A stretch of 64,000 nucleotides of DNA. Source: Sabellastarte sp. h YS-2021 (Eukaryota; Annelida; Polychaeta; Sabellida; Sabellidae). Position numbers and translations under genes: made by a program. The notes beneath the pieces were generated by a model, which saw only the letters and a list, made by a program, of their open reading frames with translations, was not told where the DNA came from and made no database searches. The first letter of the stretch is position 1. Each line of letters starts with the position of its first letter. Location: the NCBI GenBank assembly GCA_964017235.1, contig OZ024927.1, positions 24,013,160-24,077,159 of the forward strand. The letters are read 5' to 3'. Shown one piece after another: positions 15,424 through 45,281 of the stretch.

Positions 15424-16114
15424 AGCCCTTGTTCCACCAAAGGATTAAGCCCCGATCCTGTCGGCGACCCTTAATCGTGGACAGTCAGTGGGAAAAAAAC
15501 AAAAATGGGCGGGAATACTGGATCGGTTTCAAAGTCTGGGATTAAGTACAGATCGTCCTCAGGAAGCCTCAGGACGCCTCAGGCGGCCCCAGACAGTCTC
15601 TAACTGGTCTGGGACTAAGAACCGACTAAGCCATTTTTCTGTTCGGTTTGAACCACAATCCTGTTGTAGACAAACTGACTGGGTCCCACTTGAAGCCCCG
15701 ACTAACCCATGATTAAGTCCCGACCCCACAAGGTGTCCTGAGGCGTCCCCAGGCGTCCCCAGACCGAGATAGCCGATTCTTGTTTTGCAATGGGACTAAG
15801 GGTCGCAGGAGGCCTGGGACTAAGGTACTAAGGGTCGGGGAGTAAGGGTCAGCAACTAAGGGTCGCAGGCGGCCTGGGACAACATACGACTGTGTAAATT
15901 TGGTCTGAGGAGGCCTGAGAATGGACATTTTGTTTATGGGCGGGAAAAAATAATCGGTTGGGGTCAGGAGAAATATCAAACATGTTTGATTTTTCACACG
16001 GCCTTAACCGACCACAACCGACCCTTACAGGACGCCTGGGACTAAGCAAATTTTTTAAACTGACCCTCAAAAACCCTTAATCGGGAGCCTTAGTCGTGTG
16101 GTGGGACACCCACA
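15424..16114. mobile_element. Harbinger-type MITE, 691 bp
   Basis: Non-autonomous relative of the element at 37.5-45.3 kb. It begins with the same terminal words (TTGTTCCACCAAAGGATTAAG), carries GGGCGGGAATACTGGATCGG and many copies of the subterminal phrase CCTGGGACTAAG in both orientations, and ends CTTAGTCGTGTGGTGGGACA. It is flanked on both sides by TAA (15421-15423 and 16115-16117), the TWA target duplication known for PIF/Harbinger. Its internal block GGCGGCCTGGGACAACATAC also occurs in the central loop of the large palindrome. No ORF. Confidence 0.85.
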
Positions 16115-35915: not shown

Positions 35916-37864
35916 AAACAGAGTCAACTGTAATATCATTCAGTACATTACTAAAATGAGAAACTTTATTGAACATTTCTCGTTCATGAGAGTATTCATT
36001 AATAACAGTATGTAAAACATACAGTGAACATTTTACAGATATTGTTACAGAAGCTAGAAATTTGTTTAACCGGTGTATACATGTATATAAAACTACTTAC
36101 AATTTGAGTCTATATATTCCTGTATTTATCAATACATACCCTACTGTGTTATAAATACAAGATATCCAATTGACAACCAAACACAGACAGAGGCAGTACA
36201 CACACTCCACTCCTCACATGCTTTGTATTGATCTTCTCTGTATAAATAAGACGCAAAAATTGACACTTTCTATAAGATCAACATAATCTCCAATACGTTT
36301 GTCACCTCAGACTCCCTTGGCTTTTAACCAGCAAATGTATATGTAAAATAAGTAAAAGCCAACATGCAATATGTCCTCACAAGTTTTGACACAAGCTTCA
36401 AGGATGATTTATTTATTGTCCATTTTTCAAGTACTTTACAGAAACTTAAACTGAAAAATATAAAAGACATACTAACTCAGCTGTGACAAGGAGAAAAAAA
36501 TATTTCGTAACTCTGAGAAATTTATGAATTGGATTTCTTTGAAAAGTTTCAGTCAATTTAATATAAAGTAAAACATGAGTAAATTAAAACACATAAAATA
36601 ATTTCATAGATAAGAAATTAATTTCCTTACAAAAAGGTTTTGGTGCTCTTAGTTTATTATCCAAACATAATGCACATTAATTTGTATCATTCAGACAAGT
36701 CTTTGAGGCTACCTTAGGTATAACATTACCATAAACTTGGTAAACAAAATTAAAGATCCAGTGCATTAAATAATCGTGTCAATACACACACCAATAATAG
36801 AACATTTTATAGAACTTGTAATTTATGGATCACACACTTGGAAGTCGATTTGAGTTAAAGAACAAAAATCAGCAGCCAGAAATGAAGAAAATCCTTTTAA
36901 TTTAATCCTCAGAGCTGACTTAATGTATCAGTAATCTTAAAAAGCCAAAGAAAAGAAGGACCATAAACTTATTCTTATTGTTGATAAGAAGCTATTAATT
37001 CAAGCTTTGAGGATGAAGAGGTGTGCATTATCAGATATCAGTCAAAAAGACTAATGTGCTTTATCTTATTACTGGAGTATTACCACCCATTGCATGCAGA
37101 GTGAACCGTCAATCAAAAACTGTATACAAGTGTCATGTAATGGAAGGTTTAATCAGTTTAATCCTCCAAGTGCCATCTCAACAGGTCTTTTGTTTTTCAG
37201 AAGAGTTATTATGGATAATAGTTACTAGAATAACAGCATAAGGATATTACTTGGGGTATTAATTATTCCTATATGGTTTCTCTATAATGCATTAATTAGT
37301 GAATCACAAAATAAAGAACAATAGTACCTGTTATATCCAATGTCCTGTTATCCTATTATAAATTTTTATACAACAATGAGCACTCTTCCTAAATTACACC
37401 TTGGTTCTATTTTATTCTATAATTTTCCTATTTTTAGAACCTTTTGTTACTTATCTAATGCCCCTGTTCCACCAAAGGATTAAGCCCCAATCCTGTCTGG
37501 GACCCCTAATCATGGACAGTCGGTGAAGAAAAAGCAAAAATGGGCGGGAATACTGGGTCGGTAGTGAAGTCTGGGATTAAGAACAGATCGTCCCCAGGAG
37601 GCCTCAGGACGCCTCAGGCAGCCCCAGACAGTCCCCGATTGGTCTGGGACTAAGCACCGACTAAGCCGCATTTCTGGTCGGTTTCAACCGCGATCCTGTC
37701 GCAGACAAACCGACCGGGTCCCAGGACGCCTCAGGCCTCCTGGGACTAAGCCCCGACTAACACACGATTAAGTCCCGGCGTCCTCAGGCGTCCTCAGGCC
37801 TCCTCAGTCTTCCCCAGACCAGGATCGCCGATTCTTGTTTTGTAAAGTTGCTTGATTTTCTGGG

Positions 37865-37878
37865 TATATATATATAAA
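37865..37878 (+). promoter_or_regulatory. TATA-type promoter of the Harbinger transposase
   Basis: TATATATATATAAAA about 50 bases before the leader ATG at 37922. The mirrored copy in the right arm (44870-44892) has an expanded TA tract. Confidence 0.6.
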
Positions 37879-37921
37879 ATCCGCGATCTAATCACCATTG
37901 CTTTTCTAGGAACACAGCAGG

Positions 37922-39171
37922 ATGCCACCTTTTAATGGAAGACAGATTCAACAACAACTTAGGGCTTTTTTGGTTTTTATTCAGTTACAAATAATCATGT
38001 ATTTCCTATTTCTACGTCGACCACAGCAACCACCACCAGCACCCATACAGAGACCTAGAAGAAGGCACAACATGTGAGTCAGGCCATGGCTACTGCAGAG
38101 AGAGGAGAGGGGGGGCCTACCACAACATTATGGCCGATCTGTATGCCACAGATATTCCAGGATTCACCACCTACATGAGGATGACCCCAGAATTTTTTGA
38201 AATGATAAAGACCAGACTGGAACCACACCTTGCCAGGCAGGCCACCAACTACAGAGCACCAATCAGTGTTGGGGAGAAGTTAGCCCTCACCATCAGATAT
38301 CTGGCCACCGAAGAGTCCTACAAATCATTATCCTGTCAGTTCAGGGTTGGAAGATCCACCATTTCCAAGTTCTTACCAGAGGTCTGCAGGGCCATCCAGG
38401 ATGAGTTCACCAGAGAGTACCTCAAATGTCCTACTACCCCAGATGAGTGGAAAGAACTGGAGAGGGAATTCAGGATCAGGTGGAATGTTCCACATGCCCT
38501 GGCAGCCCTGGATGGGAAGCATGTGGCGCCGAAGAAATCCAAGAACACTGGAGCCCTCTACCACAACTACAAGGGCTTCTTCTCCATTGTCATGTTGGCC
38601 CTGGTAGATGGACAGTATAAGTTTAGATGGGTGGATGCAGGTACAGAAGGATCTTGCTCAGATGGCCAGATATTTAATGCCTCTCAGCTGAAGAGGAGGA
38701 TTGAAGATGGCAGACCTGACCCAGCTCCTATAATGCAGGGTGGTCCAGATGTACCCTACTTTATCCTGGCAGATGATGCTTTTGCCCTGAAGACCTGGCT
38801 CATGAAACCCTATGGCAGAAGGATGTTAACCAGAGAGGAAAGGATTGCCAACTATAGAATTTCAAGGGGCAGGAGAGTTGTGGAGAACGCTTTTGGTATC
38901 CTGGTGTCAAGATTCAGGGTGATGAGGACCACCATTGAACTACCCCCAGCAACAGTCAGGGAAGTGGTCTTCACCTGTGTGGTTCTGCACAACATACTGA
39001 GAAGCCAGTATCAATGATGATGATGTGCCTGGTGATTGTGGATTGATTGGTGGTGCTGCTGGTGGTGGCCAAGACAGAAACCCTGCTAGAGAAGCCAAGA
39101 GCCAGAGGGATTACCTGAAGGACTACTTCAACAATGAGGGAGCAGTGGCCTGGCAAGATGGAAGAATATAA
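37922..39171 (+). pseudogene. PIF/Harbinger transposase, almost intact
   Basis: DDE transposase that cuts and joins transposon ends. The longest open piece, 38130-39017 (295 aa), has a helix-turn-helix-like region (SYKSLSCQFRVGRSTISKFL) and all three catalytic blocks: D in ALDGKHVA, D in EGSCSDGQIF, E in RVVENAFGIL. The N-terminus starts at ATG 37922 (MPPFNGRQIQQQLRAF...) and is cut off by TGA at 38075-38077, where VRPWLLQREERG continues in frame. A seventh G at 38109-38115 then shifts the frame. The C-terminus (SQRDYLKDYFNNEGAVAWQD) is also one frame off after 39014. These lesions disable it unless GTGAGT at the TGA is a splice donor. Confidence 0.88.
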
Positions 39172-39279
39172 CTCCTGCTGCAGTAATCAGTCCTTTTCAG
39201 GACTAAGAAACTACTAGTCCTTTTCAGGACTACCAAATATTCCAAAAACAATTAATGAGCTATGCTTGCTACAGACAAA

Positions 39280-39570
39280 CCCCATGCCAAACATAACTTG
39301 TACAGACGGACAAACAGACAAACCCCATGCCAAACATAACTTGTTCAGACGGACAAACAGACAAACCCCATGCCAAACATAAGTTGTTCAGATGGACAAA
39401 CAGACAAACCCCATGCCAAACATAATTTGTTCAGACGGACAAACAGACAAACCCCATGCCAAACATAACTTGTTCAGATGGACAAACAGACAAACCCCAT
39501 GACAAACATAACTTGTTCAGATGGACAAACAGACAAACCCCATGACAAACAGAAGTCACCCAACTGACAA
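39280..39570 (+). repeat. ~43-bp tandem repeat in Harbinger left arm
   Basis: About six units of CAGACGGACAAACAGACAAA followed by CCCCATGCCAAACATAACTT and GTT. Two to three inverted units survive in the right arm at 44580-44690. This is internal repeat of the transposon, not a CRISPR array: there are no unique spacers. Confidence 0.9.
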
Positions 39571-39894
39571 ACAGACAGAACCAGTGCTAAACAATATTCT
39601 CAAAAACAGGACCCAAACCCAAAGATGAATTGCTAAATAGAATAAATATTGCATATAATAAGAAAGCTAAATCCTCATTTCACTCAATTTGGGATTTATT
39701 TTGGAAATATATTTGAAACAGAAATGTTTTCCTGGAAATCTTAAAAATAAATTCTTCTACTCCACTTGACAAATAATTATTCGATATAACTAGTAAACTG
39801 ATTTTAATAATGGGAGATTATGTTTGCAAAACACTTTATCAGTTTTTTGGTTTAGGTTTTGTTTTCTATTGGGTTTGGCAGTTTTTCGGTTGGT

Positions 39895-40095
39895 GGTTAT
39901 GTTTGTCAGTGGGTTTGTCTGTCAGTTGGGAGTTATGTTTGTCAGTGGGTTTGTCTGTCAGTTGGGAGTTATGTTTGTCAGTGGGTTTGTCTGTCAGTTG
40001 GGAGTTATGTTTGTCAGTGGGTTTGTCTGTCAGTTGGGAGTTATGTTTGTCAGTGGGTTTGTCTGTCAGTTGGGAGTTATGTTCGTTATTGGGTT
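39895..40095 (+). repeat. 36-bp tandem repeat in Harbinger left arm
   Basis: Five near-perfect units of TATGTTTGTCAGTGGGTTTG then TCTGTCAGTTGGGAGT. They create spurious hydrophobic open frames in all three plus frames. A heavily decayed counterpart lies at 44200-44330. Confidence 0.92.
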
Positions 40096-40482
40096 TGTGT
40101 GTTTATGGGTTGGTATGTGATAATGCCTTGTAACTCTAGGGAAGGTGCAAGTATTGAACTTTTCAATTACAGATTTTAAACTATCCCATGGATTTTCATC
40201 TAAAAATGGGCTGATTAATGGCCATATTGGGAGTTTTTTTTTATATTTGTTTTATGTGGCCTTTTTGGTTATGTGTGGTACAATGGGTTTTTTATTTCAT
40301 GTTTGGGGTGGTGTAAGTGTTGGGCTTTTTTTTGTGTGATAAGTATTTGTACTGTTTTGTTTTTTTTTTGTTTTTTTTTTGGGAGGGGAATTGGAATAAC
40401 TTGCAGCTGAATAATTGTTTTTGGAAGATTTGGTGGCCCTGAAAAGGGCCTGGCAGGTCAAAGACCCGCCCTGACTGGATGG

Positions 40483-41681
40483 CTACTGAGGAGGCTGCTG
40501 CTGCTGTTGAGGCAGTGCTGAAGTGGTGATAGTAAAGAGCTGCTGCTGCGGTTGTTGCAGCTGTGGCTGCTTGACGATCTGTGTTGATGTCAGATCAGGT
40601 AGCTGGCTTAAAATTCCACTCAGGTTATGTCTGCTCCCTTCGTCCTGTACAGTTAGGACAGATGTAGGGTTGCTGAAGCCAATGGGGCTTGGTGTATAGT
40701 AGACAAAACTGCTGCCAGCTGCTGCTTGAGTGGAACTAGACGCCTGTTGAGTGGTTGGTGGCAGTGTCCCGACCCTCTGTGACTCCGTGGTAATAGTGGC
40801 TGATCTTCTGGGCAATTGCTGACGTCTACGGTTGCTCTTAATACTTTCGATGTCTCTGAATATCTTGCCCTTTAATTCTTCAAATTCTTCTTGAGTCATC
40901 TTTTCGGCCTCTGATGCCACGTAGTCGAAGAAGGGCTGCCTGTCAGACTTCTGCTGCAGAAAACCTGAGATAAGTGTCCTCATCTGCTCAAAATGTTCGA
41001 GAATCTTGGAGTCTGTTGTTGAAACGGGTGTAGATGTAATGACGGACTGACTCCTCTCCCTCAGGACACTGGACTCGAGGTGTTCTGTGTCAGTAGTCGA
41101 CCCATGTGATTCGTCCTGCCTGCTGGTATTCGGACTGGCCTCAAAACCTCAACTTCTGTTGGCCCCCTCTCTTCTGATGTGGGTTTTAAGAAAACCCATC
41201 TGTTGGTAGACCCAGGACTGTCTCTTGGTCATCTCCCTCGGGGCTTGGCCAGATTGGAGCTTAGACAGCTTGCCATAACGCGTTCGCTGGGACTCGAACC
41301 AACGTCTCACATCAAAGGGCTGGAGCTTGAGTTCTGCAGATATTTCTGCCCAGAGAGCTTCTCTGCTGGTCCTGTCGTAGAAACGTGAATGTTCCTTGGC
41401 ATACAGTTCAGGGTGCTGCTTTACAAATTCCACAATGGAAACTTCCTGACTGTCTGTAAAAGTGGCACACACCCTGGCTCTCTTGGCTGAAGAATGGCAC
41501 TCCGGATCTTCTTCACACTTCTCTTCTTCTTCTGCCACAGCTTCCCCAATAGCTGGACCTTCCTCAATCTCCTCTCAGTTCCTTCTTCTGTAATAACTTC
41601 ACTCCTCTCCTCTACCTCACTTTCCTTCTCTCTCTCATCCATCTTTTTCCTTCCTCTCTTCCCTCCTTTCTCTTTCCTCAT
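40483..41681 (-). pseudogene. Harbinger MADF/BESS-like protein, left copy
   Basis: Accessory DNA-binding protein of the element, equivalent to the Myb/SANT-like second ORF that PIF/Harbinger elements need for transposition. Order: acidic/basic leader (MRKEKGGKRGRKKMDE), a MADF-type three-helix domain (VCATFTDSQEVSIVEFVKQH ... ALWAEISAEL ... VRRWFESQRTRYGKL), linker, a BESS-like segment (QPFFDYVASEAEKMTQEEFE) and a Gln/Ser-rich tail. Compared with the right copy it has a 13-base deletion in the leader (frameshift). Both share TGA after GANRS. The frame after that stop stays open to 40483. Confidence 0.8.
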
Positions 41682-41852
41682 AATCCAGTTGACAAAATAA
41701 TAAAAAAATAGTAAAATGTGTCTCCTAACTGTGAAATTTGCCCTAAGCTCAAGTATATAATATATAAAATAAAAACTGAAAACCTCTACAAATCAGTGAC
41801 ACACGTCTCTCAGCCAAACAGTCAGTAACAACGAGAATGTGTGCGCGGTCAC

Positions 41853-41859
41853 TTATATA
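41853..41859 (-). promoter_or_regulatory. TATA box, left MADF gene
   Basis: Minus-strand CTATATAAGTGACCGCGCAC, about 170 bases upstream of the ATG at 41681, mirrored at 42459-42465. Confidence 0.65.
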
Positions 41860-41959
41860 GTGTCAGACCCCCTCATTGCCTCGATTTCATTTCAGACGCG
41901 CGGAAAAGAGTCGGTTCTTAATCGGTTGTTAGTCCCAGGCCTCCTGGGGTGTCCTCAGA

Positions 41960-42370
41960 CCATCGCAGACTAAAAATGTGTGGTCCCAGGCGTCCTGGGG
42001 AGGCCGGTTTGGATCGGTTAGGGTCGGTTACCCTTAGTCGGGGCTTAGTCCCAGACCTAGATTTTTGGGTCCCAGGACACCGCAGACGGTCTGAGGCTTC
42101 CGGGGACTAATGCAACAGACTAACTTTCAGACGCATGAAATTCAAACGCATCATATTTGAGTCTGGGATTAACAACCGGCCTCCTGGGACTAAGCTACGG
42201 AGGTCTGGGACTAATGGTCGCAGGTGGCCTGGGACAACACACGACTGTGTAAATTTGGGTCTGAGGAGGCCTGAGGACTCCTGGGACTGAACATTTTGTT
42301 GAGGGCGGGAAATATGAATCGGTTGTGCCTGGGACAGCACAAATTTAGTCTGCGACGGTCTGAGGACACC
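41960..42370. other. Central loop of the Harbinger palindrome
   Basis: This is where the arms stop matching. It consists of subterminal Harbinger sequence with many CCTGGGACTAA-type words, including a block shared with the MITE at 15424-16114 (CCTGGGACAACACACGACTG). Neither canonical outer end (GTTCCACCAAAGG) is present, so the junction has lost the inner termini. Confidence 0.7.
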
Positions 42371-42458
42371 TCAGGAGGCCTGGGACTAACAACCGATTAA
42401 GAACCGGCTGTTTTCCGCGCGTCGGAAATTAAAACGAGGCAATGAGGGGGTCTGGGAC

Positions 42459-42465
42459 TATATAA
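42459..42465 (+). promoter_or_regulatory. TATA box, right MADF gene
   Basis: CTATATAAGCGACCGCGCAC, then CATTCTCGTTGTTACT, about 175 bases before ATG 42640. Together with the mirrored box it forms a divergent promoter pair across the loop. Confidence 0.65.
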
Positions 42466-42639
42466 GCGACCGCGCACACATTCTCGTTGTTACTGGCCAT
42501 TTGGCTACTGAGAGACGTGTGTCACTGATTTTTAGGGGTTTTCAGTTTTTATTTTATATATATTATACTTGAGCTTAAGGCAAATTTCACAGTTAGGAGA
42601 CACATTTTACTATTTTTTTAGTATTTTGTTGACTGGATT

Positions 42640-43832
42640 ATGAGGAAAGAAAAAGGAGGGAAGAGAGGAAGGAAAAAGATGGATGAGAGAGAGAAGAAAA
42701 GTGAACAACAGGAAAGGACAGAAGTTACAGAGGAAGGGATTGAGAGGAGAGAGCAGGAGGAGATTGAGGAACGTCCAGCTATTGAGGAAGCTGTGGAAGA
42801 AGAAGAGAGGTGTGAAGATGATCCAAAGTGCCATTCTTCAGCCAAGAGAGCCAGGGTGTGTGCCACTTTTACAGACAGTCAGGAAATTTCCATTGTGGAA
42901 TTTGTAAAGCTGCACCCAGAACTGTATGATAAAAAGGAACATCCACGTTTCCACGACAGGACCAGAAGAGAGGCTCTCTGGGCAGAAATATCTGCAGAAC
43001 TCAAGCTCCAGCCCTTTGATGTGAGACGTTGGTTCGAGTCCCAGCGAACGCGTTATGGCAAGCTGTCTAAGCTCCAATCTGGCCAAGCCCCGAGGGAGAT
43101 GACCAAGAGACAGTCCTGGGTCTACCAACAGATGGGTTTTCTTAAAACCCACATCAGAAGAAAGGGGGCCAACAGAAGTTGAGGTTTTGAGGCCAGTCCA
43201 AATACCAGCAGGCAGGACGAATCACGTGGGTCGACTACTGACACAGAACACCTTGAGTCCAGTGTCCTGAGGGAGAGGAGTCAGTCCGTCATTACATCTA
43301 TACCCATTTCAACAACAGACTCCAAGATTCTCGAACATTTTGAGCAGATGAGGACACTTATCTCAGGTTTTCTGCAGCAGAAGTCTGACAGGCAGCCCTT
43401 CTTCGACTTCGTGGCATCAGAGGCCGAAAAGATGACTCAAGAAGAATTTGAAGAATTAAAGGGCAAGATATTCTGAGACATCGAAAGTATTAAGAGCAAC
43501 TGTAGATGTCAGCAATTGCCCAGAAGATCAGCCACTATTACCACGGAGTCGCAGAGGGTCGGGATACTACCATCAACCACTCAACAGGCGTCTAGTTCCA
43601 CTCAAGCAGCAGCTGGCAGCAGTTTTGTGTACTATACACCAAGCCCCATTGGCTTCAGCAACCCTACATCTGTCCTAACTGTACAGGACGAAGGGAGCAG
43701 ACACAATCTGAGTGGAATCTGACATCAACACAGATCATAGAGCAGCCTCAGCAGCAGCAGCAACCACAGCAGCAGCTCTTTACTATCACCACTTCAGCAC
43801 CGCCTCAACAGCAGCAACAGCCTCCTCAGTAG
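42640..43832 (+). pseudogene. Harbinger MADF/BESS-like protein, right copy
   Basis: Inverted duplicate of 40483-41681. The MADF part is intact from ATG 42640 to TGA 43180-43182 (180 aa). Beyond the shared TGA, the frame continues into the BESS-like segment but meets an extra TGA (about 43474, AGA in the left copy) and a 17-base deletion near 43718 before the Gln-rich end at 43832. The 180-aa product alone could still be a DNA-binding MADF protein. Confidence 0.8.
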
Positions 43833-44559
43833 CCATCCAGTCAGGGCAGGTCTTTGACCTGCCAGGCCCTTTTCAGGGCCACCAAATCTTCCAAAAACAA
43901 TTATTCAGCTGCAAGTTATTCCAATTCCCCTTCCCCCCCAAAAAAACTTCAGTACAAATACTTATCACAAGAAAAAAACAAAACAAGCCCAACACTTACA
44001 CCACCCCAAACATGGAATAAATAACCAATGGTACCACACATAACAAAAAAGACCACATAAAAAAAAATTAAAAATAACTCCCAATATGGCCATTAATCAG
44101 TCCATTTTTAGATTAAAATCCATGGGATAGTTTAAAATCTGTAATTGAAAAGTCCAACACTTACACCTTCCCTAGAGTTAAAAGGCATTATCACATACTT
44201 ACCAACCCACAAGCAGATAAACCCAACACCAAACATAACCCCCAACTACCAAAAAAAACCCAATACAAATAAACACCAACCAAGAAACAGACAAACCCAA
44301 AAGTAAACAGAACCCATGCCGAAGAACTGACAAACTATTTTGCAAACACAATCCCCCATTATTGAAAAGAAAACTAGCTCCATGGTTATATTTACCATAT
44401 ATTTGTGAACAGAAGTGAAGATTTCAGATTTCAGATTTCCCTGCAAACATTTCCTTTAGCAATAATTTTAAAACCCAATGAAAAAAAAGAATTGGTGATA
44501 TTAGGATGTGAATTTTCAAAATATATACAAAAATCATTTCATTTAGGATATTATGTGTG

Positions 44560-44822
44560 GCTTTGTGTGTGGCTTTTGGTTGGCACTGGGTTTGTCTGTC
44601 CGTCTGTACAAGTTATGTTTGGCATGGGATTTGTCTGTTTGTCCGCCTGTACAAGTTATGTTTGGCACGGGGTTTGTCTGTTTGTCCGTCTGTGGTGGTG
44701 CTGGTGGTGGTGGTTGCTGTGGTCGACATAAAAATTGGAAAATACATGATTATTTGTAACTGAATAAAAACCAAAAAAGCCCTAAACTGTTGTTGCATCT
44801 GTCTTCCATTAAAAGGTGGCAT
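44560..44822 (-). pseudogene. Transposase remnant, internally deleted right arm
   Basis: The minus strand from ATG 44822 reads MPPFNGRQMQQQFRAFLVFI, matching the left-arm leader at 37922. After the CCACCACCAGCACC tract it jumps straight into the 43-bp tandem repeat, so the entire catalytic domain is gone. It cannot encode a transposase. Confidence 0.85.
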
Positions 44823-45281
44823 CCTGCTGTGTTCCTAGAAAAGCAATGGTGATTAGATCGCGGATTGTATATATATATATATATATATATACCAAGAAAA
44901 TCAAGCAACTTTGCAAAACAAGAATCGGCGATCCTGGTCTGGGGAAGACTGAGGAGGCCTGAGGACGCCGGGAGTTAATCGGGGGTTAGTCGGGTCTTAG
45001 TCCCAGGAGGCCTGAGGCATCCTGGGACCCAGTCGGTATGTGTACGACAGGATCGTGGTTGAAACCGACCACAAACGGGGCTTAGTCGGTTCTTAGTCCC
45101 AGACCAGTCGGGGTCTGTCTGCGGCCACCTGAGGCTTCCTGAGGACGATCGGTACTTAATCCCAGACTTCAAGACCGACTCAGTATTCCCGCCCATTTTC
45201 CCTTTTTTTTCACCGACTGTCCACGATTAAGGGTCCCAGACAGGATCGGGCCTTAGTCCTTTGGTGGAACAGGGGCATTAG

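Follow-up and report, generated by a model that had tools for sequence, protein, structure and literature searches.

PIF/Harbinger elements, in the definitions offered by portions of PMC4482050 and PMC9179366, are the closest described relatives of the locus reported here, with which it shares a DDE_Tnp_4 transposase, a Myb/SANT-like (MADF) accessory gene, terminal inverted repeats (TIRs), and TWA flanks. It differs from them in consisting of two truncated copies, hereafter copy A (left) and copy B (right, inverted), and not of one element, and long copies of its family often have TWA flanks that disagree. A second point of reference is Mu killer of maize, an internally deleted and partly duplicated DNA transposon that silences its family, MuDR. 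By the account in part of PMC3440606, the outside of Mu killer is formed by two TIRs that both derive from one end of the element and the inversion point lies inside, and the data in that paper weaken a simple hairpin model. The plan of the A/B locus is similar, but Mu killer duplicates transposase sequence, whereas the inverted sequence common to A and B consists chiefly of the MADF gene with its neighboring DNA. The A/B arms also come from two subfamilies. Galileo and the Foldback elements of Drosophila, of the P-element superfamily, have long TIRs and are on record as a source of chromosomal inversions (part of PMC3688188); compared by description only, they resemble the A/B locus in their long TIRs and differ in superfamily. 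A literature search for Harbinger inverted dimers, palindromes, or head-to-head arrangements returned no paper on such a structure, as judged by title.

The window is the whole stretch of 64,000 nucleotides that was analyzed (C1:24013160-24077159), and the entire assembly to which it belongs (1.786 Gb, 647 contigs) was searched. An earlier note on this DNA had described positions 37455-45281 as a palindrome made from one Harbinger family. Self-comparison of the sequence bore this out, with arms 87-90% alike and Pfam domains identified in them. Positions 37455-38041 pair in inverted orientation with 44702-45281 (outer arms, 87.3% match), and 40018-41991 with 42327-44299 (inner arms, 90.2% over 2012 columns), a similarity far above chance (BLAST E = 0.0). 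The arms terminate precisely at TAA (37455) and TTA (45281), and outside these TWA triplets self-comparison revealed no similarity between the flanking sequences of the two sides. Several details of the note were also confirmed: left TIRs occupy both outer ends, the left half carries tandem repeats of 43 and 36 bp in addition to the DDE_Tnp_4 transposase and a MADF gene on the opposite strand, and the right half retains the MADF gene and lacks the transposase, DDE_Tnp_4 being detected in arm A alone. Both MADF genes read outward from the center, and the transposase of A reads toward it. The features are as follows.

37455..37457, no strand: TAA, left flank of copy A (target-site copy, its partner lost)
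37458..42326, + strand: copy A, PIF/Harbinger, entire apart from its final 153 bp; collinear with copy L011 (92.8%)
37921..39171, + strand: transposase pseudogene of A (Pfam DDE_Tnp_4)
39271..39551, + strand: 43-bp tandem array of A, 6.5 copies
39889..40102, + strand: 36-bp tandem array of A, 5.9 copies
40483..41681, - strand: MADF accessory-protein pseudogene of A (Pfam MADF, 6.9e-12)
41992..42326, + strand: the "loop", subterminal sequence of the usual right end of A
42326..42327, no strand: fusion point of A and B, both sides compared with other copies
42327..45278, - strand: copy B, inverted, without its final 488 bp (335 + 153) and without transposase
42640..43832, + strand: MADF pseudogene of B (Pfam MADF, 2.2e-11)
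44693..44702, no strand: deletion point private to B, transposase removed
44702..45278, - strand: left TIR, subterminal repeats, and leader of B
45279..45281, no strand: TTA, outer flank of copy B

Every gene of the A/B pair in the window is broken. The DDE_Tnp_4 match in arm A is strong (2.6e-31; 108.8 bits, cut-off 24.8), and the longest open frame left in this gene is 38130-39014. Compared with copies L009 and L024, where the frame is open over 432 and 433 aa, the gene has a premature stop and frameshifts. MADF_DNA_bdg scored 46.0 and 44.4 bits in the two arms (cut-off 22). Relative to the frames of 403 and 402 aa in L009 and L027, the MADF gene of A has a frameshift and a stop, and that of B has two stops and one frameshift.

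The locus belongs to a PIF/Harbinger family with thousands of genomic copies. The search for end motifs, with up to 2 mismatches, gave 6246 left ends (3082 + 3164) and 5029 right ends (2500 + 2529), and the control matches numbered 0 and 1. An ordinary copy is ~4.94 kb long and comprises a transposase gene, the tandem arrays, and a convergent MADF gene between TWA flanks; L011, for example, spans TGCCCCTGTTCCACC to GTGTGGTGGAACACCCACA. The termini form inverted repeats (left, TGCCCCTGTTCCACC...; right end read inward, TGTGGGTGTTCCACC...), and both PIF/Harbinger genes are represented at the A/B locus, the DDE transposase in arm A and the Myb/SANT-like second gene in both arms. Counted from the usual start in the family, the longest open frames are 437 aa (transposase) and 403 aa (MADF), and in several copies neither frame is open. 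A first comparison set was composed of 20 of the 39 other listed transposase-bearing places.

Other arrangements of family members were seen along the way. Positions 15424-16114 of the window hold a short, internally deleted member that has kept both ends and has TAA on each side. Members lie inside or adjoin other members in three of the 20 compared copies (L011, L019, and L023) and in L030. Small members would make up only ~0.24% of the genome if each were 700 bp, so new insertions may be drawn to the TTA-rich subterminal repeats. In L019 (three ends 38 bp apart) and L023 (~313 bp), tandem copies of the right terminus follow one another, in most cases with TWA at the joint, as if ends had been joined to an internal TWA. 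At C1:14665202-14683191 four left ends in one orientation follow each other at ~6 kb, probably a tandem duplication of a stretch with one copy. Two pairs of closely similar copies, L010/L014 (C7:9.90 Mb and 9.57 Mb) and L020/L021 (C3:175.6 and 181.4 Mb), each on one contig and with flank bases in common on at least the right side, are likely segmental duplications.

The center of the palindrome had been regarded in the note as a loop without either inner terminus. Both inner termini are indeed gone, but the loop is not anonymous sequence; it is the normal right end of the left copy. Of 2210 candidate places 40 were scored, and each of the 39 outside this locus matched the loop at 96-97% over 332-335 bases, the matches ending at 42326 or 2 bases short of it. 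The anchor preceding 42326 was present in 16 of the 20 compared copies and was not found in the other four, and all 16 continue from it into the right end of the family. Because other copies run on in this way, the loop can be assigned to A in its normal orientation, and its identity as ordinary right-end sequence elsewhere rules out a separate element or a hairpin product. In L011, 153 bp separate the point equivalent to the break in A from the right terminus. Copy B starts at the position equivalent to 41991. The junction is blunt or nearly so, with no base shared when compared with most copies and at most one given the variation in a few, and there is no host DNA between A and B. A 36-base pattern across 42326/42327 occurred, with up to 3 mismatches, at one place in 1.79 Gb. 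A 200-bp junction probe matched the window at full length and none of 41 other listed places spanned the joint (40 of 3148 candidates were scored).

The absence of the transposase from the right arm is due to a deletion private to B. A 131-bp probe over the deletion point was spanned in the window only, the other 39 places matching the leader side alone (40 places scored), and the subfamily of B includes transposase carriers: C11:99541394 lies beside C11:99542692, and L056, from there, groups with B.

Whether the arms are one duplicated copy or two insertions was examined with trees. A first set of 16 other copies was picked by likeness to the transposase of A and is therefore biased toward A. 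In it, A was closer to each of the 16 than to B, A ranked second among 17 in nearness to B, and sister arms were rejected only mildly (AU p 0.022; 0.036 in the TIR). When the tree was built from the MADF coding part, A and B came together with weak support (51/72). Given how this set had been chosen, 10 copies picked by likeness to B were added, of which 9 were usable. The final tree has 27 rows and leaves out L012, L024, L025, L026, and L058 (overlap too short or none). In it, B groups with the 9 B-like copies and A with the 16 others, across a branch supported at 100/100; among the 26 other rows in each case, B is the 17th nearest to A and A the 12th nearest to B. Holding A and B as sisters costs 135 log-likelihood units (AU p 6.6e-48). 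A and B thus belong to two different subfamilies. Their end branches of 0.013 and 0.017 suggest roughly similar ages; an estimate that B is about three times older than A (52 versus 17 differences from the majority) was dropped, as it came from the set biased toward A and the wider tree gave near-equal branches.

Two single-base states are exclusive to the two arms among the copies compared. The same stop change in the MADF gene is present at 41150 in A and at its partner near 43180 in B, and in 0 of 36 other copies compared. A change at 37853, in the leader region, is common to A and B and occurs in 0 of 17 other copies. In the first set 41071, 41098, and 41150 were all exclusive to A and B, within ~370 bp without a B-only change. 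In the wider 20 copies two of the three proved common (12 of 20 and 5 of 20), leaving 41150 alone exclusive, so gene conversion between the arms was dropped as unsupported. The stop at 41150 possibly reflects a short conversion between the arms. The two exclusive states are too few to save a duplication; chance or a minor conversion event could account for them.

For the TWA flanks, the perfect left (84) and right (100) ends listed for the first 40 Mb of C1 were paired, giving 46 copies. The TWA was identical on both sides in 33 of these and differed in 13. The agreement identifies TWA as the target duplication of the family, with 13 exceptions; at the A/B locus both inner ends are gone. The outer flanks of the pair are TAA on the left and TTA on the right and not the identical TWA of a single mobile dimer, a mismatch that argues only weakly against such a dimer because 13 of 46 ordinary copies are mismatched too. 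The note had read the mirror-image flanks as a sign of inverted duplication. They carry no weight in this respect, since independent ends would agree only about half the time and 13 of the 46 paired copies have unlike flanks on their own two sides. Agreement varied with length (C1:0.99-39.9 Mb), at 24 of 29 copies under 4.5 kb and 9 of 17 longer ones (Fisher p 0.044). Adding to the longer class 13 transposase-bearing copies from the L009-L028 loci, read by eye and some of them under 4.5 kb (5 of 13 agree), lowered p to 0.006; L014 (a near-duplicate of L010) and L027 (whose flanks disagree) were left out. The two ends of long copies look as if they often came from different events, such as inter-copy recombination. 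A literature search on mismatched target-site duplications returned no paper.

The structure most probably arose as two separate insertions from two subfamilies that were fused after losing their inner ends, and the subfamily split, the rejection of sister arms, and the unrelated flanks beyond the TWA all point to this origin. A fusion product had been among the options named in the note, whose preferred reading was a snapback, in which one chromosomal copy and its flank are duplicated in inverted orientation and the right arm then loses its transposase. Long inverted arms of one family with mirror TAA/TTA flanks would fit a snapback, as would the two states at 41150 and 37853, which no other compared copy has, and the tree of one sub-region in which the arms are weakly joined. 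Yet the arms fall in different subfamilies (AU p 6.6e-48) and the flanks are unrelated beyond 3 bp; homology also stops exactly at both element ends, which is unexpected for a chromosomal duplication, and the snapback is very unlikely. An artefact of assembly, either a folded-back read or a chimeric join, deserves mention because palindromes are a classic product of this kind. Fold-backs give near-identical arms that run into the same flank, though, whereas the arms here differ by ~10% overall, represent two subfamilies, and have unrelated flanks, and the contig is 194 Mb long; we consider an artefact extremely improbable.

A dimer fused elsewhere that later transposed to this site as a whole, by means of its outer left TIRs, is a form of the mobile inverted dimer raised in the note. 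It fits the intact look of both outer termini, and the TAA/TTA disagreement is compatible with it, since 13 of the 46 paired copies disagree. The junction, which a mobile dimer should carry to more than one genomic copy, is nevertheless found in one place only, there is no sign of an original site, and nothing requires the move, making it unlikely. Fusion in place has evidence counted against it as well: the exclusive changes at 41150 and 37853, which would be consistent with a common origin or with local conversion between the arms, the rank of A as second nearest to B in the A-biased set, and the weak joining in the MADF part (51/72). The junction retains nothing of the lost ends, and no host DNA, that would prove a deletion. 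Nesting of A inside B was also considered; it would put the missing right end of B to the left of A, and no such sequence was found there.

For the two-insertion origin, we infer the following order of events. Two family copies would have inserted separately and close to each other, oppositely oriented so that their right ends faced. The facing ends (153 bp of A and 488 bp of B) would then have been lost together with anything between them, and the broken ends would have been rejoined with at most one base in common. This may have been end joining after a double-strand break, perhaps following a failed excision or the instability of a long inverted repeat. By random placement, ~43 pairs of left ends should lie in this way within 7.8 kb of each other, and the first 40 Mb of C1 contain two outward-facing pairs within 12 kb among 84 perfect ends, versus 0.5 expected. 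At the second such pair, L030, a copy in inverted orientation has inserted into another close to its right end, and no inner right terminus was found. The A/B pair looks like an ordinary genomic accident, and is now presumably an inert fossil.

A role resembling that of Mu killer can also be imagined. Read-through of the fused right ends would yield a hairpin with ~2-kb arms, and small RNAs from it would target the MADF gene that the two subfamilies have in common and so silence thousands of copies in trans. From the gene order, such a transcript would need to read through past two convergent genes, and we regard this role as highly improbable. An eye-catching palindrome of 7.8 kb can be a by-product of copy number, as inverted neighbors are expected among thousands of copies and one such pair can lose its inner ends, and it is easily taken for a duplication unless genomic copies are at hand for comparison. 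Fused pairs of this kind would matter more only if they make double-stranded RNA.
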